Part shown: in pieces, positions 4,248-63,441 of the stretch
Layout: each line of letters starts with the position of its first letter
How positions within the stretch are numbered: the first letter of the stretch is position 1
Source: Thermanaerosceptrum fracticalcis
GTDB lineage: Bacteria; Bacillota; Peptococcia; DRI-13
Length of the DNA: 64,000 nucleotides
Assembly: GCF_000746025.2 (NCBI RefSeq)
Contig: NZ_CP045798.1
Span: 1,908,501 to 1,972,500 of the forward strand
Direction of reading: 5' to 3'
Position numbers and translations under genes: made by a program
The notes under the pieces: model-generated
Seen by the model: only the letters and a program-made list of their open reading frames with translations
The model's database searches: none
Told to the model about the DNA's origin: nothing

Positions 4248-5066
4248 CTAACTGTTGGGGATTATTTTTAAAGGAATTAATTTTTCTACCAGTTGGGCTA
4301 CAACACGGTCAGGATCCTCCTGCCCGCCTGCAATCATTTCTCCACCGGGCCGCTCCGGGGGAGCAAAAATATTGCGTACCATGGTAGGCGAGCCTTTAAG
4401 CCCCAAATACTTATCTTCTACCGGGATATCCTGCTTATTCCAGGTCTCCACTTCATAGCGTGCAGCCCGGATAAGATTAGGTAAGCTGGCATAACGAAGT
4501 TCGTTAAGGTCCTTAACCACTGTGAGCAAAACGGGTAACGCAGTTTTTACCACTTCCCGTCCATTTTCCAGCTTGCGCTCTACCTGGATCTCATTTTTCT
4601 CCCGGTCAATTTTGTCCACTTTCATCACATATGTAAGCTGGGGAATCCCCAGCCGGGCGGCAATCCCCGGGCCCACCTGGGCCGTATCCCCGTCAATAGC
4701 CTGCTTACCGCAAAGAATTATATCCACCTTTTCTTCCTCATTGAGTTTTCGAATGGCCTGGGTAAGCACATAACTGGTAGATAAAGTATCGGCGCCGGCA
4801 AAGGCCTTATCGGAAATGAGGATAGCCCTGTCCACTCCAAAAGAGACTGCTTTCCTCAATGCATCGATAGCTAAAGAAGGCCCCATGGTTATGACGGTAA
4901 CTTTTCCCCCGTACTGATCTTTAAACTTCAGGGCTTCTTCTATGGCATGTATATCATAAGGATTGATAATGGCCGGAACCCCTTCACGAATTAACGTGTT
5001 GGTCTTGGGGTCAATTTTTACTTCCGTAGCATCAGGCACCTGTTTCATGCAAACAACATAATGCAT
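4248..5066 (-). CDS. fixA: FixA / EtfB, electron-transfer flavoprotein beta subunit
   Basis: A 272-residue ETF beta subunit. It opens with the family signature MHYVVCMKQVPDATEVKIDP and contains the GKQAIDGDTAQVGPGIA nucleotide-binding segment. It pairs with FixB and in bifurcating ETFs holds the bifurcating FAD. It is the first gene of fixA-fixB-fixC-fixX-radicalSAM, all on the minus strand and tightly packed. A strong AGGAGG precedes the ATG. The 416-bp upstream spacer holds the operon promoter and the DnaA-box cluster described separately. Confidence 0.94.
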   Translation of the reverse strand: MHYVVCMKQVPDATEVKIDPKTNTLIREGVPAIINPYDIHAIEEALKFKDQYGGKVTVITMGPSLAIDALRKAVSFGVDRAILISDKAFAGADTLSTSYVLTQAIRKLNEEEKVDIILCGKQAIDGDTAQVGPGIAARLGIPQLTYVMKVDKIDREKNEIQVERKLENGREVVKTALPVLLTVVKDLNELRYASLPNLIRAARYEVETWNKQDIPVEDKYLGLKGSPTMVRNIFAPPERPGGEMIAGGQEDPDRVVAQLVEKLIPLKIIPNS

Positions 5067-5204
5067 TTTTTTACCTCCTTCCTGTTAGTATCATAGTTTA
5101 GCATATTATTGATTTTTATGTAAGATTTGCCTAAGAAAGTTCTACCGGAAACTGGCTCTGCATATACTTTAATGGGAATAGTACTGGAAGAACATATGCT
5201 CTAT

Positions 5205-5384
5205 ATATCCACAGTTTCCACAGACTTATCCACAGAATAAACCCTTAAAGAATATGTCCCTAGTCATTATTCTCCACATTATCCACAGGTAATGTGGTTT
5301 TTGTGCTGCTTTTTTATCCACACGAAAATCCTTGATATTTCAGTTATGCACAAAGTTATCCACTTTATCCACAATTTATCCATT
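5205..5384 (+). other. Cluster of DnaA-box-like 9-mers
   Basis: Within 180 bp, five exact matches to the DnaA box TTATNCACA occur on the plus strand, at 5226, 5279, 5314, 5344 (TTATGCACA) and 5365. Near matches lie at 5205 (ATATCCACA), 5270 (TTCTCCACA), 5356 (TTATCCACT) and 5376 (TTATCCATT). All face the same way. No dnaA, dnaN or other oriC-type gene is nearby, so a DnaA-titrating or regulatory cluster is more likely than the main origin. The site lies between fixA and the corC terminator. Confidence 0.75.
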
Positions 5385-5418
5385 CACATGGGACTAAAGG
5401 CGCATCTCTTCTGTGACA

Positions 5419-5460
5419 AAAAAACCAACCAATCCTAATCATAGGAGAGGTTGGTTTTTT
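5419..5460 (-). terminator. Intrinsic terminator after the corC-like gene
   Basis: Stem AAAAAACCAACC (5419-5430) pairs with GGTTGGTTTTTT (5449-5460), with a smaller inner TCCT/AGGA pairing. The A-tract on one side and T-tract on the other allow it to work in both directions. It lies directly downstream of the minus-strand gene ending at 5483. Confidence 0.85.
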
Positions 5461-5482
5461 CTTTTCTCTAGATGACCAGACT

Positions 5483-6964: not shown

Positions 6965-7981
6965 TTAGTACAGTTTTAAGTTGGGCACAGCATTAAGATA
7001 CCAGTCCGCCCGTTCCCCCATTTTATAACGGTAATAACCGGCACAGGCAATCATGGCCGCATTATCCGTACAGTAATGGAAGGGAGGATAAAGAAGTTCC
7101 AGGTTTTCCTCACTACAACGCTCATGTAAGTATTTTCGCAAGGAACTGTTGGCAGCTACTCCTCCCGCCAGTAAAACTGTCTTCACACCTTGCACCCTGG
7201 CAGCTTTGACGGTCTTTTCCACCAAAACTTCTACCACACTGGCCTGAAAACTGGCAGCCAAATCTGCCTTATTCACTTCCTCGCCTTTTTGGGCGGCACG
7301 GTTTAAATAATTTAACACGGCCGATTTTAAGCCACTGAAACTAAAGTCATAGTTATCGTCCCCCAGCCAGGCCCGGGGCAAAGCAATAGCCTTCTCGTCT
7401 CCTTCCTTGGCCAAGGACTCCAGCAGGGGGCCGCCCGGATAGCCTAAACCCATAGCCCGGGCTACTTTGTCATAAGCTTCCCCTGCAGCATCATCCAGGG
7501 TCTGTCCCAATAAACGATAGCGACCATGCCCTTGCATCTCCACCAGGGCCGTATGTCCGCCGGAAACTACCAAACAAACCACAGGAAAAAGGATAGAATC
7601 ATTGCCTAACCAGTTGGCGTAGATATGTCCTTCAATATGATTAACACCGACTAAAGGGAGTTTTAAGGCGTAGGCCAGGGCCTTGGCCGTACTCACACCC
7701 ACCAGAAGCGCACCTACCAGCCCAGGCCCGTAGGTAACGGCAATGGCTGTAAGGTCGTCAAAAGTTATGCCAGCTTCTTGCAAAGCCAAATCGACAACCA
7801 GATTAACCTGTTCCAGGTGATGACGGGAGGCAATCTCCGGCACAACCCCGCCGTATTTTTGGTGAATCTTGATCTGGGAGGCTACCACATTGGCCAATAT
7901 GTCCTGTCCGTCAGCCAGAACAGCTGCCGCCGTTTCGTCGCAGCTGGTCTCAATAGCCAGGATGATTTCTCGTTTCTGCAT
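6965..7981 (-). CDS. tsaD: TsaD, tRNA t6A threonylcarbamoyltransferase subunit
   Basis: A 338-residue Kae1/YgjD-family protein that transfers the threonylcarbamoyl group to A37 of ANN-reading tRNAs together with TsaB and TsaE. Seen: [11 protein letters not shown] near the N-terminus, iron-ligand histidines in NHIEGH (about H115 and H119), the glycine-rich [10 protein letters not shown] and [10 protein letters not shown] segments, and the C-terminal CTDNAAMIA aspartate. RBS GAGGG precedes the ATG. tsaE, tsaB and rimI are immediately upstream, and the clustering supports the assignment. Confidence 0.97.
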
Positions 7982-56982: not shown

Positions 56983-57007
56983 CCTCAAGTCCTTTGAGGT
57001 TTTTTTT
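56983..57007 (+). terminator. Intrinsic terminator after abfT
   Basis: CCTCAA-GTCCT-TTGAGG followed by eight T residues. Confidence 0.85.
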
Positions 57008-57103
57008 ACCCCCGAGAACTTTTCCGGAACAGGATTTCTCTTGGCCATGCAGAACTAAGAAGACTAGGCGACCAGTAATACGTATTTACCGAGGGGTGTG
57101 GCT

Positions 57104-58677
57104 ATGCCAGAAAAAACCTACCTGAATTCCGGAGAATCCCTTACCGAAGAACTCCTTACCATTCTTGAATCCACCTATAATGGCATCATTGCTATCAACA
57201 AGGAAGGAATAGTCACCATCATAACAAGTCTGCGGAACGCTTTTTAGGAAAACCTGCTTCTCTGGTCCTCGGCAGACATATTAAAGAAATTTTGGTTAAT
57301 ACGGGTCTTTTGGAAGTAATGAGAACAGGCCAAGCCCAAGCAGGTCAGAAACTGACTATCGGGGACCGGACCTTTATTACCAACAGGACCCCAATCTATA
57401 AAGACGGGGAAATCATTGGGGCTATCGGTGTCTTTCAGGACATCTCCGACCTGGATTCAATTTCCCGGGAACTCAGGTCGGTGCGGGAAATAAGCGAGGA
57501 GTTGGACGCAATAATTGAATCATCCTACGACGGCATCTATGTTACCGACGGTGTAGGTGTAACTATCCGGGTGAATAAAGCCTATGAACGAATTACCGGT
57601 GTGTTAGCCAAAGAAGTAATAGGGCGTAACATGAAAGATTTAGTCAAAGAAGGTTTCTTTGATCAGTCTGTTACCCTCATCGTCCTGGAAAAGAAGCAGC
57701 CCGCCACCATCATGCAGGAAATAAAGAAAACCGGGAAACAAGTGATTGTCACGGGAAATCCTGTCTACAATTCCGAAGGAAAAATTGTTCGCGTAGTAAC
57801 AAATGTTCGTGATATTACGGAACTTAACACTTTAAAAAGTCAACTGGAAAAGACCCAGAATCTTTCCCAACGTTACTACTCCGAACTCCAGCACTTGAGA
57901 AGCCAGCAAATGGACCTGGAAGGGATGATTGTAGTCAGCCCCGAGATGAAAACTATTATCGAAAAAGTGAAACGGATCAGCCAGGTTGAATCTACCGTCT
58001 TAATCATGGGAGAGTCCGGTGTGGGAAAAGAAAATATCGCCAAACTCATTCACCGTTGCAGTCCCAGGTTTGAGGGGCCTTTTATTAAAATCAACTGCGG
58101 AGCTATCCCGGAAAACCTATTAGAGTCTGAACTCTTTGGTTACGAAACGGGCGCTTTCACAGGAGCCAAAAAAGGTGGCAAACCAGGACTAGTTGAACTG
58201 GCCAACGGGGGTTCTTTGTTTCTTGATGAAATTGGTGAGTTAGGCTTAGCCATGCAGGTTAAACTCCTGCGCCTTCTGCAGGAAAAGGAATTTATCCGGG
58301 TAGGAGGCACACAAACCCAGTTAGCCAATATACGGATTATTGCTGCAACCAATAAAGATTTAAAAGCCATGGTCCAGGAAAAGCATTTCCAGGAAGATCT
58401 ATATTATCGCCTCAATGTGGTCCCTATTTATATTCCTCCCCTCCGGGATGAGATTTCGGAGAACGACCTGCCGGAACACATCAAAGGGCAAATCTCTCCG
58501 GGCGAAAAAAAGGTGAAAACCCTCGAACAAATAGTGGCCGAGATCGAAGAGGACGCTATCTCCAAGGCCTTAGAACGCAACAAAAATATGGAAAAAGCTG
58601 CCCACGCTCTAGGGATTCACAGGACTACCCTTCTCCGCAAAGCCAGGAAGTATGGCATCACTATTAGCGGTTCCTAG
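57104..58677 (+). pseudogene. Sigma-54-dependent activator, frameshifted and internally deleted
   Basis: Same PAS-PAS-AAA+-Fis family as the activator at 42396. From the ATG at 57104 the frame ([19 protein letters not shown]) runs into a stop at 57245; the next frame carries on at once with [19 protein letters not shown], so about one base is missing near 57218-57224. Downstream, Walker [15 protein letters not shown] and [10 protein letters not shown] are intact, but PPLRDE is joined directly to [10 protein letters not shown] near 58450: about 60 residues, including WPGNVREL (sensor II), are gone. The HTH ([17 protein letters not shown]) remains. It was probably the regulator of the abf genes. 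Confidence 0.9.
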
Positions 58678-58720
58678 TTATTAGCAGCAAAGTTACTATT
58701 TACTAGCGAGGAGCTGAACA

Positions 58721-59023
58721 ATGAAAAAAATCGGTATCAAATACTGCGGTAATTGTAACCCACATATTGACAGTCCTGCTATCATCAACTATCTTAAAGA
58801 ACACAGCAAAGGAGAATGGGAGTTTGTCTCCTGGAATGACAATGAGATGGCCCTTTTAATTATCATGAGCGGTTGCCCTGCCGATTGTGCTACCCGCCCT
58901 GATTTTCAAGGTAAAGTCATTTCTGTAAGCGGCCTGTATGTAGACCTACATCCCGTAGAGGAAAAGGTCCTTAAAGAAACATTATTAAAGAAAGTTTATG
59001 AAACTCTAAATAAGACAGAATAA
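58721..59023 (+). CDS. Small CGNCNP-motif protein of unknown function
   Basis: 100 residues. N-terminal IKYCGNCNPHID and a second Cys pair (SGCPADCATRP) could bind a metal or form a redox pair. I have a general recollection of short CGxCNP proteins near organic-acid genes in Clostridia, but no function is known to me. AGGAG precedes the ATG. It is 43 bp after the activator pseudogene. Its last 13 codons are duplicated at 49123-49161. Confidence 0.75.
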   Translation: MKKIGIKYCGNCNPHIDSPAIINYLKEHSKGEWEFVSWNDNEMALLIIMSGCPADCATRPDFQGKVISVSGLYVDLHPVEEKVLKETLLKKVYETLNKTE

Positions 59024-59024
59024 G

Positions 59025-59050
59025 AACGCAGGCTTAGCCTGCGTTTTTTT
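59025..59050 (+). terminator. Intrinsic terminator after the small protein
   Basis: AACGCAGGC-TTA-GCCTGCGTT, 9-bp perfect stem, followed by T-run. The 62-bp repeat array begins at the next base. Confidence 0.9.
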
Positions 59051-59174
59051 AACGTATAGGAAAGTATAAAAATTTTTGTGGTTCTCAGCCCTTGCTAAGC
59101 AAGGGTTTTTTCAACGTATAGGAAAGTATAAAAATTTTTGTGGTTCTCAGCCCTTGCTAAGCAAGGGTTTTTTC
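59051..59174 (+). repeat. 62-bp tandem repeat array, two copies
   Basis: Two head-to-tail identical 62-bp units starting at 59051 and 59113. Each contains a GTATAGGAAAGTATAAAAAT segment, GTGGTTCTCAG, and an intrinsic-terminator hairpin CCCTTGC-TAA-GCAAGGG with TTTTTT. Seven more copies lie at 60700-61133 on the other side of the IS21 remnant. The end of the second copy supplies the last codons and stop of the truncated istA. Confidence 0.95.
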
Positions 59175-60320
59175 ATTTTTTACGGCCCTGGGCTTAGCAG
59201 CTAATATAGGCAGATAGTGTTCCAGTTTCATGATCTTTTCGCCACGGTCGTAGCAGCGGTCATGGATGGCTACCAGCTTGGTTGAATCGTAAATCTCTAA
59301 TCGGTCGACGAAGGCCTCAACACGTAACTTTCTATGGGCATATTCTATGGGGACAGAATAGTAATTACGGCTGAATTGGAAGAGGAGCAGCTTACTTACT
59401 GAAATCATATGAGTGCTGGAACATTTAAACGGGGCTGATGGTAAGGGCCTTAGTTCTTGACGTTCCTGCTCCCAGTCTTTAATACGCAATTGCCGTTGTT
59501 TTTCGCACCAGTTCAGGAGCATACTGTTGAGTTCATCTAATGAGTTGACTTCGGGTACTGGTACTAGGGCATTTTGCCGGACATACTTGACCAGATTCTC
59601 CACCGTCCCCTTCTCATTACCACTGTGGGGATTACAGAACTCGCTGTCAAAAAGATAGTGGGCGCGGAGACTGGAGAAATGCTTATGTTCTTCTCGGTAA
59701 GGTCCCTTTAGGATCTTAGTTACAGCCGTCTTAGGGTTATCGTAGACAAGATTCCAAGGGATTCCTCCCAGCCATTCAAAAGCCCTTCTATGGCCTTCTA
59801 AGAAACCTTCTAGCTTTTCTGTGGGGGAGGCCCATACAAAGGAGACTAGACTTGCTTTAAGTCTTAGGCAGAAGAGGGATACTTCAGTTAACTTACCATT
59901 TATGTAGACCTTGGCTCTCCCCCAATCAACCTGGGCTTGTTCGCCCCAGTCTGCTGTTAGAGGCACATAGGCTTCATTGAGTTCATTTTTCACTATTCTG
60001 ACATATCTCCGTACTGTTGTTTCGCTTCCTGTATAGTCATATTCTTCACAAAGGCGGTGATATATCCTCCTGGCTGTATGTTGTTGTTTTTCGGGTTGGG
60101 TTTTATCTAGTTCTAGCCATTCCCTAATTATTTCTTTATATGGGTCTAATACGGGACAGGGCTTTTCTTGGGATAGTTGGTATTTCGGTATTTCTGAGTT
60201 TTGAAGGGCTTTTCTTACTGTCTGCCGGGCCACGTGTAGATTCCGGCTAATCTTTCGTATGGACCACCCTTCAATGTAATACTTTTTTCTGATATACTCT
60301 TTATCGACCATTCCGATCAT
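59157..60320 (-). CDS. istA: IstA-type IS21 transposase, C-terminally truncated
   Basis: 387 residues. N-terminal HTH (GWSIRKISRNLHVARQTVRKAL), DDE catalytic acids in AQVDWGRA, VYDNPKTAV and NEKGTVENLV. The protein ends EKTLA within the repeat array, about where other IstA proteins continue for roughly 100 residues, and no istB follows. The start at 60320 has AGGAGG seven bases upstream. The element is therefore probably defective. Confidence 0.88.
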   Translation of the reverse strand: MIGMVDKEYIRKKYYIEGWSIRKISRNLHVARQTVRKALQNSEIPKYQLSQEKPCPVLDPYKEIIREWLELDKTQPEKQQHTARRIYHRLCEEYDYTGSETTVRRYVRIVKNELNEAYVPLTADWGEQAQVDWGRAKVYINGKLTEVSLFCLRLKASLVSFVWASPTEKLEGFLEGHRRAFEWLGGIPWNLVYDNPKTAVTKILKGPYREEHKHFSSLRAHYLFDSEFCNPHSGNEKGTVENLVKYVRQNALVPVPEVNSLDELNSMLLNWCEKQRQLRIKDWEQERQELRPLPSAPFKCSSTHMISVSKLLLFQFSRNYYSVPIEYAHRKLRVEAFVDRLEIYDSTKLVAIHDRCYDRGEKIMKLEHYLPILAAKPRAVKNEKTLA

Positions 60321-60444
60321 GTCCTTTCCTCCTGTACGATGTTGTCTTTGCAACTTCAATCATACAGGAATTGGCTCTCGGGGTGGTCAATTTTTTCATT
60401 ATCACAGGCTATGAAAGTGGTCAACTTTTATGTTATCACTACCA
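59175..60444 (-). mobile_element. IS21-family remnant (istA only, one end)
   Basis: The istA-proximal end carries two 22-bp direct repeats starting TGGTCAA and ending TTATCAC (60384-60405 and 60418-60439), like the multiple terminal repeats of IS21 ends; the element probably ends in CA at 60443-60444. The other end with istB is missing, replaced by the repeat array through a shared ATTTTTTA junction. Confidence 0.8.
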
Positions 60445-60445
60445 G

Positions 60446-60526
60446 TATCTCACGGATCCTGAGGTGGTACAACTAAGCCAACGGCTGGATCAATTGTTGA
60501 ATAAGTATTCGGGAAAGCAGGGCTGA
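60446..60526 (+). pseudogene. Spo0E-like aspartyl-phosphatase fragment (3' end)
   Basis: The 26 codons read YLTDPEVVQLSQRLDQLL and then NKYSGKQG with stop, which matches the C-terminal helix of Spo0E-family phosphatases (SxELD-like core in LSQRLD). Its N-terminal half was cut off where the IS21 end begins. Spo0E proteins remove phosphate from Spo0A-type regulators. Confidence 0.75.
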
Positions 60527-60699
60527 ATAAATTGGGAGTTAATTCTTGTTTTGGATTAACTTAGACATGTTTTAAACTGCACGGACGTAGAGAAATATGT
60601 TACCATAGTGGCAGGACTCTCCTTTCGGTAAGTGTGGTCGCAAACATAGCATTTCACCGACAAGGTTCAAGAGTCCTTTTTCCATTTCAGGATTTTTTT
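60527..60699 (+). ncRNA. Structured segment with branched hairpin ending in a T-run
   Basis: AGGACTCT (60614-60621) pairs with AGAGTCCT (60671-60678), CCTT (60622-60625) with AAGG (60663-60666), and CGGT (60627-60630) with ACCG (60657-60660); TTTTT follows. No reading frame is evident. It may be a terminator with a long loop, a small RNA or part of an IS end. Low certainty. Confidence 0.4.
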
Positions 60700-61133
60700 A
60701 ACGTATAGGAAAGTATAAAAATTTTTGTGGTTCTCAGCCCTTGCTAAGCAAGGGTTTTTTCAACGTATAGGAAAGTATAAAAATTTTTGTGGTTCTCAGC
60801 CCTTGCTAAGCAAGGGTTTTTTCAACGTATAGGAAAGTATAAAAATTTTTGTGGTTCTCAGCCCTTGCTAAGCAAGGGTTTTTTCAACGTATAGGAAAGT
60901 ATAAAAATTTTTGTGGTTCTCAGCCCTTGCTAAGCAAGGGTTTTTTCAACGTATAGGAAAGTATAAAAATTTTTGTGGTTCTCAGCCCTTGCTAAGCAAG
61001 GGTTTTTTCAACGTATAGGAAAGTATAAAAATTTTTGTGGTTCTCAGCCCTTGCTAAGCAAGGGTTTTTTCAACGTATAGGAAAGTATAAAAATTTTTGT
61101 GGTTCTCAGCCCTTGCTAAGCAAGGGTTTTTTC
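60700..61133 (+). repeat. 62-bp tandem repeat array, seven copies
   Basis: Units start at 60700, 60762, 60824, 60886, 60948, 61010 and 61072 and look identical to each other and to the two at 59051. Each ends in the CCCTTGC-TAA-GCAAGGG-TTTTTT hairpin. The array is followed by ATTTTTTAACG and then the IS91-like transposase gene 47 bp later. Confidence 0.96.
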
Positions 61134-61179
61134 ATTTTTTAACGAAAGCAGGAAGTAGTTGTTAGAAAGGTGAGAACAT

Positions 61180-62439
61180 ATGGGCCAGGATAATATCTTA
61201 AGAGAGATATTTTTTGATGAGAACAAGCATTGGGAAAAGTTTGTTAATAAATACGAAGACAGAATACGTCCTGTTGTGATAAAGGAAATCAATAAATTTA
61301 ATCGATGTGGACAAAAAGAAGCAGGATTTACTCTGTTCGCATGTCCGGTATGTGGAGAAATGAAAATAGTTCCTCACACGTGTAAGGGACGTTTTTGTAC
61401 ATCGTGCGCAACCGGATACACCCAAGAATGGAGTCGAGAAACCAGTAAAAGAATGTATCCGGTTCCTCATCGCCACATCATGTTTACAGTGGACGAACGT
61501 TTGTGGGAAATATTTACCCGTCATAGAGAACTCTTGAAAGATCTAATGGACCTGGCAGTAAAAATACTATTAGAATGGCTGAAGAAAAGAGGAAAAGTCA
61601 AATCCGGCGCCATGGTAGGAATACATACCTTTGGAGCAAGAATGAACTTCAATCCCCATGTACATATCCTAGTAACTGAAGGTGGTTTTGACGGAGCGGG
61701 GAAATGGGTTGTTAAAGACTTTATCCCATATGTAATGCTGAGGAAAAGGTGGCAGGCGGCAGTAATGGAGATGTTGAAGAAAAAACTGCCGGAACAAGAA
61801 GTTAAACGATATAAGAAGTTGTTTCAAAAGATATGGGATGATAACCCTGAAGGATTTGTAATCTATGGTCCGCCCAATAAAAAAGGACAAGGGTCAGTAG
61901 AAGCCCAAGTAGGATATATAGGGCGGTACATGAGAAGACCTGCCATGGCGTTAAGCAGAATTGTAGACTATGACGGGGAAAATGTAACCTTTAAATACTT
62001 TGATAAAACAGAGCAAAAAGAAAAACAAGAAACCATCACCGTAGAAGAATTCATATCACGGATAATAAGGCATATACCGGATGAGCAATTTAAAACAATC
62101 CGGTATTATGGAATTTACTCCAGAAGGAGTAAAAGATTGGCTGACAAATTAATGGAAGCATACCTGGGAAGGCAGAAAAGAAGGAAAAACGGCCAAAGAG
62201 GAAAGCAACGGATAGGCTGGAGAAATAAAATAGAAGAATTCACAGGAAAAGACCCGTTAGAATGTATGAGATGTAAAGAGATAATGGAATACAAGGGGAA
62301 AGTGTGTCTAAAATCAGGGATATTGAAAGTTGTTGATGCCGTAGATGACTTTGCTAAAAAAAGACTAAAGGAGTTGGCAGGAATAGATGAGCCCAGTAAG
62401 CAGAAAAAGAAAGAAACACGCAAAGAAAAAGCCGCCTAA
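61180..62439 (+). CDS. IS91-family HUH (Y2) transposase
   Basis: 419 residues. N-terminal zinc-binding cysteines (CPVCGEMKIV, HTCKGRFCTSC), HUH motif PHVHILVTEGG (about 168-178), and tyrosines in YIGRYMRRPAMAL. The family moves by single-strand rolling-circle transfer with separate origin and termination ends and leaves no target duplication. RBS AAAGGTG precedes the ATG. No inverted repeats are expected; the ends were not located. Lysine-rich C-terminus. Confidence 0.9.
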   Translation: MGQDNILREIFFDENKHWEKFVNKYEDRIRPVVIKEINKFNRCGQKEAGFTLFACPVCGEMKIVPHTCKGRFCTSCATGYTQEWSRETSKRMYPVPHRHIMFTVDERLWEIFTRHRELLKDLMDLAVKILLEWLKKRGKVKSGAMVGIHTFGARMNFNPHVHILVTEGGFDGAGKWVVKDFIPYVMLRKRWQAAVMEMLKKKLPEQEVKRYKKLFQKIWDDNPEGFVIYGPPNKKGQGSVEAQVGYIGRYMRRPAMALSRIVDYDGENVTFKYFDKTEQKEKQETITVEEFISRIIRHIPDEQFKTIRYYGIYSRRSKRLADKLMEAYLGRQKRRKNGQRGKQRIGWRNKIEEFTGKDPLECMRCKEIMEYKGKVCLKSGILKVVDAVDDFAKKRLKELAGIDEPSKQKKKETRKEKAA

Positions 62440-62641
62440 AGTAGGCGGCAAGGCAACCATCAAATTTGTTTGTTTGCAGTGTAACATAGAAGAAGACATT
62501 CCGAAGGAAGTGGTGGATTACTGCGATATGATGGATGACGGAGATATTTCAGTTCCACCAAGGTTTAGTTGTGAGGTTTGTGGCGGTGAGATGCGCCCAA
62601 AAGAATACTTAGGTGTGCATGGTATTAAATATGAGTTATAG
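62387..62641 (+). CDS. Small zinc-ribbon protein overlapping the IS91-like transposase
   Basis: 84 residues. A basic N-terminus (RKRKKHAKKKPPKVGG) and two CxxC knuckles (CLQCNIEE and CEVCGGEM). Its ATG lies in another frame within the last 53 bases of the transposase gene. A likely accessory or regulatory protein of the element; function unknown. Confidence 0.6.
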   Translation: MSPVSRKRKKHAKKKPPKVGGKATIKFVCLQCNIEEDIPKEVVDYCDMMDDGDISVPPRFSCEVCGGEMRPKEYLGVHGIKYEL

Positions 62642-62653
62642 GAACCAAAGAGC

Positions 62654-62678
62654 GCGCGACCTTGGTCGCGCTTTTTTT
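62654..62678 (+). terminator. Terminator after the IS91 unit
   Basis: GCGCGACC-TT-GGTCGCGC and seven T residues. Its T-run reaches the stop codon of the convergent SDR gene. Confidence 0.88.
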
Positions 62679-63441
62679 ATTCTGCTGTCCAGCCGCCGTC
62701 AATAACCAGCGTCTGCCCCGTCATATAATCAGAGGCCTCCGAGGCCAAAAAGACTGCTGCCCCCGTCATATCTCCCACTTCCCCGATTCGGCGCACGGGG
62801 ATTTTACCGATAATATGGTTGTAAATCTTCTCTTGACTCAATTCCTTTTCATTCATGGAAGTTTTTACATAACCCGGACACAAAGCGTTGACCTGGATAT
62901 TGTAACGGGCCCATTCTAAAGCCAGGGCTTTTGTTAACTGGATGACACTGCCCTTGGCTGCGCAGTAGGGAAGCACCTGCCGGTCTCCCACCAGACCTAG
63001 GATAGAGGCCACATTGATGATTTTCCCCCGCTTCTGTTTTATCATCTCTTTACCCACTGCCTGGGCACAAAAGAATACCCCTTTTAAATCAACATTAAGT
63101 ACCCTGTCCCAATCTTCCTCAGTTATATCCTCCGCCTTTTTGGTAAGGGCCGTACCGGCATTATTTACTAAGATATCAACACGACCAAAGTGATTAATTG
63201 TTTTCTCAACCATATTCTGTATCTGATCAAGGCTGGTCACATCAGTGGAAACAGGCAAGGCTTCCCTCCCCAATCCCTTGATCTCCGCCGCCGTTCCCTC
63301 ACAATCTGCCTGGTTCCGGCTCACCACTATAATATTGGCTCCGTATCTGGCCAAAGCCACGGCTAAGCCGTAGCCAATGCCTTTGGTGGCTCCTGTCACG
63401 ATAGCGACTTTGCCGGACAAATCAAAATGAGTACCGGCCAT
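62677..63441 (-). CDS. Short-chain dehydrogenase/reductase
   Basis: 254 residues. Cofactor motif VTGATKGIGYG, NNAGTALTKK, catalytic Ser and YCAAK, and C-terminal VIDGGWTAE. FabG-like in sequence. GGAGG lies five bases before the ATG at 63441; a longer reading frame upstream is not needed. Its original neighbour was probably the small protein at 58721, because the ends of both are found joined at 49123-49222. Substrate unknown. Confidence 0.88.
   Translation of the reverse strand: MAGTHFDLSGKVAIVTGATKGIGYGLAVALARYGANIIVVSRNQADCEGTAAEIKGLGREALPVSTDVTSLDQIQNMVEKTINHFGRVDILVNNAGTALTKKAEDITEEDWDRVLNVDLKGVFFCAQAVGKEMIKQKRGKIINVASILGLVGDRQVLPYCAAKGSVIQLTKALALEWARYNIQVNALCPGYVKTSMNEKELSQEKIYNHIIGKIPVRRIGEVGDMTGAAVFLASEASDYMTGQTLVIDGGWTAE

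Follow-up and report, generated by a model that had tools for sequence, protein, structure and literature searches.

In Bacillus subtilis, DnaA binds to clusters of boxes located outside oriC. Cluster 4, between gcp (the same gene as tsaD) and ydiF, contains 10 sites and is bound by ATP-DnaA with a Kd of 0.15 μM; at 55 nM, the preference for ATP-DnaA is 16-fold (PMC4447404). The clusters at ywcI, trmE/jag, ywlC, yqeG/sda and yydA are of the same kind, with strong DnaA binding outside oriC (PMC4447404). According to the accounts of the work of Okumura (2012) given in PMC5295017 and also in PMC13220808, deletion of six B. subtilis clusters resulted in early initiation, which was partly relieved by restoring one of them. 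In E. coli, datA and a dense DnaA-box region near oriC (PMC12371093) are likewise chromosomal boxes that lower the free or active DnaA, as proposed below for the locus described here; a feature of datA of its own is that it needs IHF and drives ATP hydrolysis (PMC5295017).

The stretch of DNA analysed here (hereafter, the window) is 64,000 nucleotides long and corresponds to positions 1,908,501-1,972,500 of the single contig (3,805,411 bp) of Thermanaerosceptrum fracticalcis. One of its intergenic regions, outside oriC, is densely occupied by DnaA boxes and has the neighbourhood of a known cluster, the 3' side of gcp/tsaD (the B. subtilis place being taken from PMC4447404). These boxes are therefore an extra-origin DnaA-box cluster, a kind already known. 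With the gcp-ydiF cluster this one shares the place downstream of tsaD, outside oriC, and about ten boxes; it differs in that a CNNM gene stands between tsaD and the cluster and in that the far gene is fixA. With respect to the other B. subtilis clusters the neighbours are different, and the genes adjacent to those clusters are listed as under direct DnaA regulation (PMC8203912).

Organisation and conservation of the box cluster

The box scan of the window gave five exact TTATNCACA boxes and three boxes with one mismatch at 5205-5373, all eight on the + strand. The first-pass annotation had described a dense, same-orientation cluster with five exact and four near matches in 180 bp, beyond what chance would give. 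Density, orientation and the five exact boxes were confirmed, whereas only three of the near matches have one mismatch and the fourth needs two. Box 1 (ATATCCACA, 5205-5213) has one mismatch and box 2 (TTATCCACA, 5226-5234) is exact. Box 3 (TTCTCCACA, 5270-5278, one mismatch) and box 4 (TTATCCACA, 5279-5287, exact) are the two halves of a tandem spaced by 9 bp, and are followed by the exact box 5 (TTATCCACA, 5314-5322). Box 6 (TTATGCACA, 5344-5352, exact) opens a conserved triplet, TTATNCACA-NNN-TTATCCACA-TTATCCACA, which has in its middle box 7 (TTATCCACT, 5356-5364, one mismatch; in the aligned relatives this box ends in CACA) and is closed by box 8 (TTATCCACA, 5365-5373, exact). The dominant start-to-start spacings are 9, 21 and 12 bp, the layout of the 9-bp tandem being TTATCCACATTATCCACA. 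Box 4 is found inside a hairpin (CCACATTATCCACAGGTAATGTGG, 5274-5297) that has a T run. This hairpin is partly kept in relatives and may be an inverted partial box, not a terminator.

The whole genome contains 127 exact boxes in 3.8 Mb. At this density, 0.006 exact boxes are expected per 180 bp and the probability of finding at least five is 6e-14, or about 1e-9 per genome; in a Markov simulation of 300 windows of 64 kb, the maximum was 2 boxes in any 180 bp. Both calculations rule out a chance origin of the cluster. An RNA element was also discarded, since the Rfam search of the window gave no match.

On the tsaD side, the cluster is preceded by a terminator-like hairpin (AACCAACC...GGTTGGTT, 5418-5461, with the T run on the - strand), recognised by eye, which would end the tsaD-side genes before the cluster. 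These are the gene of a CNNM/CorC-type membrane protein (PF01595; 5483-6757, - strand), which only some members of the class have at this place, and tsaD (gcp) itself (6965-7981, - strand), the gene tied to the cluster across the phylum. On the far side is fixA/etfB (4248-5066, - strand), which adjoins the cluster only in part of its own class, and a weak promoter-like site (5133-5105, - strand) lies between the cluster and fixA. The far end of the cluster carries a LexA-box-like motif, GAACATATGCTC (5190-5201, + strand), kept in own-class relatives and present at this place in several genera of the class even without fixA. A single base separates it from the perfect GAACATATGTTC; related sites, AAACATATGTTC and GAACACATGTTT, are found in the promoter of lexA. 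The motif is possibly a LexA half-site beside the DnaA cluster.

Conservation in relatives had been indicated by the first-pass annotation as a check. When the 571-bp region was used as a DNA query, 27 out of 40 relatives (genus, order and class) gave matches, many of which span the box region and not the fixA end. In the class-level alignment of the window with nine relatives, 89% of the bases inside boxes are identical to the window as compared to 43% outside (p = 6e-23). This result indicates that the boxes are selectively conserved. When the triplet TTATNCACA-NNN-TTATNCACA-TTATCCACA was searched with at most 2 mismatches, it was found in 40 of the 46 class genomes, where not all copies are at this locus, while the reversed control gave none.

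Position with respect to the replication origin

A full DnaA match occurs only once in the genome, at C1:2669129. Its distance from the cluster is 755 kb, in agreement with the earlier remark that neither dnaA nor dnaN is found nearby. GC skew, sampled as 20-kb pieces (60 stretches plus the window), flips from negative to positive near 2.67 Mb, at dnaA, and back near 0.82 Mb; these are the only switches, and the skew is negative on either side of the cluster. The cluster sits on one chromosome arm, at 0.40 of the half chromosome from oriC. The cluster is therefore not the origin, since the one full DnaA gene is found at the GC-skew switch, at a distance of 755 kb. What marks oriC, a GC-skew minimum with dnaA/dnaN, is absent from the cluster, and the skew check thus placed it outside oriC; no TAG-type run of DnaA-trios, as in a DNA-unwinding element, was obvious there by eye. 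Within the negatively skewed arm, the skew is locally positive for a few kb at about 57000-63000 of the window, a segment that was perhaps inverted or acquired.

The region upstream of dnaA has boxes of its own, on both strands, with the same TTATNCACA consensus as the cluster. The two sites are alike in this consensus and in having pairs spaced by 12 bp. They differ in that oriC coincides with dnaA and with the switch in skew, has boxes on both strands and gave no exact 9-bp tandem. The density of the boxes and the 12-bp-spaced TTATNCACA pairs shared with the oriC of this genome could point to a second or relic replication origin. Nevertheless, we consider such an origin very improbable, considering the position of the two skew switches, the negative skew on both sides of the cluster and the lack of replication genes among the neighbours examined.

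The spacing of the boxes also seems to separate the two kinds of site. In a hand count on a small sample of genomes that are not independent, 9-bp tandems accounted for 8 of 15 pairs at tsaD, while among the 16 pairs at oriC there was 1 (Fisher p = 0.006). This suggests that the 9-bp tandem is a non-origin arrangement. The layout of the triplet (12, then 9 bp) is fixed over many families. The fixed triplet and the prevalence of 9-bp tandems at tsaD over oriC together suggest that an ordered complex is formed.

Linkage to tsaD and neighbouring genes

We analysed 81 tsaD-anchored stretches, mostly of 20 kb, taking as a cluster at least 3 exact boxes within 250 bp. The stretches represent about 80 families of the phylum, almost every family with a single stretch. 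A cluster was present in 37 of the 81 stretches; about half of the sampled families have no clear cluster at tsaD. All 37 clusters are at -104 bp to +2.2 kb from the tsaD end, and none was found elsewhere in the 81 stretches. The exact boxes in clusters are antisense to tsaD in 136 cases vs. 14. The density of exact boxes is 35 per 10 kb in the first 500 bp past tsaD, while the majority of the remaining bins have 0 to 1. In the class of our organism, a gene such as CNNM intervenes between tsaD and the cluster.

Since these stretches had been chosen by tsaD, the converse scan was carried out with the 18-mer TTATNCACATTATCCACA, placed blind to tsaD. It was found in 172 of 398 phylum genomes, while its reversed control was found in none of the genomes among those listed. 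Among the 76 listed copies in genomes where the place of tsaD is known, 33 are 0-2.5 kb downstream of tsaD (about 0.1% expected). Of 26 genomes, most of them single-contig, 12 have close box pairs on the same strand at tsaD, 10 have them at oriC and 14 at other places. These results show that the linkage of a DnaA-box cluster to tsaD holds across the phylum. The distance between tsaD and oriC ranges from 0.17 to 0.95 of the half chromosome and cluster presence makes no difference to it (p = 0.32); a fixed oriC distance as the reason for conservation is thus unsupported. Five genomes (G057, G063, G109, G180 and G226) without a box pair at tsaD have the TTATNCACATTATCCACA tandem elsewhere, as if the cluster had moved. 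Separately, a second DnaA-box triplet (e.g. TTATCAACAGAGTTATACACATTATCCACA) at C1:2282689-2282750 and 11 other loci recurs in the order away from tsaD. Some genomes have it downstream of a set of flagellar genes that includes fliS, whereas in others it precedes a cold-shock gene and an hpf/S30AE gene. This triplet may represent a further extra-origin DnaA cluster that has been conserved.

Bacilli were sampled through chromosome-like records filed as plasmids. In Staphylococcus aureus, eight boxes (at most 1 mismatch) are found between MutS-like and ABC-F genes, 1.85 kb past tsaD, and in Paenibacillus cellulosilyticus eight boxes are at +4.4 kb from tsaD; these clusters are displaced copies. 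In single representatives of Listeria, Enterococcus, Fusobacterium, Aeromonas and Prevotella, in three Clostridia and in two Actinomycetota, the 600 bp past tsaD contained no exact box and at most 1 near box. When the stretches from Listeria, Enterococcus, Clostridia and Fusobacterium were scanned with a sliding window, no more than 3 boxes were found in 250 bp.

As the cluster lies in the spacer upstream of fixABCX, it had been proposed that DnaA might tie energy metabolism to replication. This proposal was not supported, because the cluster adjoins tsaD in dozens of families with other genes on the far side. Within 4.5 kb of tsaD, the 37 cluster loci have radical SAM (13), formyl-THF ligase (11), lgt (6), groES (5) and convergent ABC-F (4) genes, where all families except radical SAM were named by us from reading the sequences; ydiF of B. 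subtilis is likewise a convergent ABC-F gene. In its own order, the cluster is intact where fixA is replaced as a neighbour by a gene for a radical SAM protein or by some other gene. The cluster does not travel with fixA, which is not adjacent in many families and adjoins it in only some members of the class; any tie to fixABCX is therefore local, and the varied far-side genes rule out a fixABCX-specific element. In this species, fixA transcription might nevertheless be affected locally. More generally, the cluster might be a site where DnaA represses or activates the far-side gene (here fixABCX) or governs read-through from tsaD. The cluster is in fact upstream of fixA, with the weak promoter-like site between them, and in B. 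subtilis eight gene sets are under the direct control of DnaA (PMC8203912). This explanation seems unlikely to us, in view of the varied far-side genes, of the position of the B. subtilis cluster between two 3' ends (PMC4447404), of the absence of gcp and ydiF from the gene sets that the review PMC8203912 lists as directly regulated, and of the terminator-like hairpin that parts the cluster from the tsaD-side genes here.

Proposed role of the cluster

A titration or regulatory cluster outside oriC, as in some other bacteria, was the interpretation first given to these boxes and is still the best reading. The deletions in B. subtilis give early initiation and our organism, like B. subtilis, has a YabA gene; for these reasons a DnaA sink is the best-supported role, and by extension from B. 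subtilis a putative sink restraining initiation is the most likely function. We therefore regard as probable, with some reserve, that these boxes form an ancient cluster, passed on vertically, which acts as a DnaA sink and so restrains initiation. Its home would be the 3' side of tsaD, the same place as that of the B. subtilis gcp-ydiF cluster. By analogy, DnaA, probably mostly ATP-DnaA, would bind the eight boxes cooperatively, including the two 9-bp tandem pairs, and the bound DnaA would be unavailable to oriC. When a passing fork copies the cluster, sink capacity would be added with each copy. With bound DnaA kept from oriC and the sink copied by the fork, initiation would be delayed, in our proposal, until more DnaA is made.

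A sink alone leaves the retention beside tsaD unexplained. The fixed triplet, the excess of 9-bp tandems at tsaD and the ATP-DnaA preference of the B. subtilis copy (PMC4447404) would also fit a site that changes the nucleotide state of DnaA, like E. coli datA or DARS, instead of a passive sink. We give this explanation a low probability, considering that datA works with IHF while B. subtilis is reportedly without IHF, Hda, datA and DARS (PMC13220808), and that no partner site was identified here. A further reading, to which we give a fairly low probability, is that the cluster is an ancestral Firmicutes element, beside tsaD since before the split between the phylum and Bacilli, whose 9-bp head-to-tail tandems, antisense to tsaD, build a specific DnaA complex lowering active DnaA.

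In the literature searched, we found no earlier description of the 9-bp tandem layout and the phylum-wide tsaD linkage, and no paper joining DnaA boxes with tsaD; 'DnaA-box cluster' and gcp occurred together only in the B. subtilis binding study (PMC4447404). An earlier notice of the conservation elsewhere, for instance in subscription papers, is possible.

The placement beside tsaD, an essential gene, both across the phylum and in B. subtilis, suggests that a brake on replication arose early and has been kept widely. The effect of a single cluster in B. subtilis looks weak, yet the site has been long selected, as its being tied to the same gene across the phylum and in B. subtilis indicates. 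With the cluster, initiator titration could be examined outside E. coli at a locus that is defined and comparable, and the 9-bp tandem provides a bioinformatic marker of non-origin DnaA sites, which guards against mistaking such sites for oriC. If the reading as an ancestral element were true, one inherited chromosomal locus would be a general brake on initiation.
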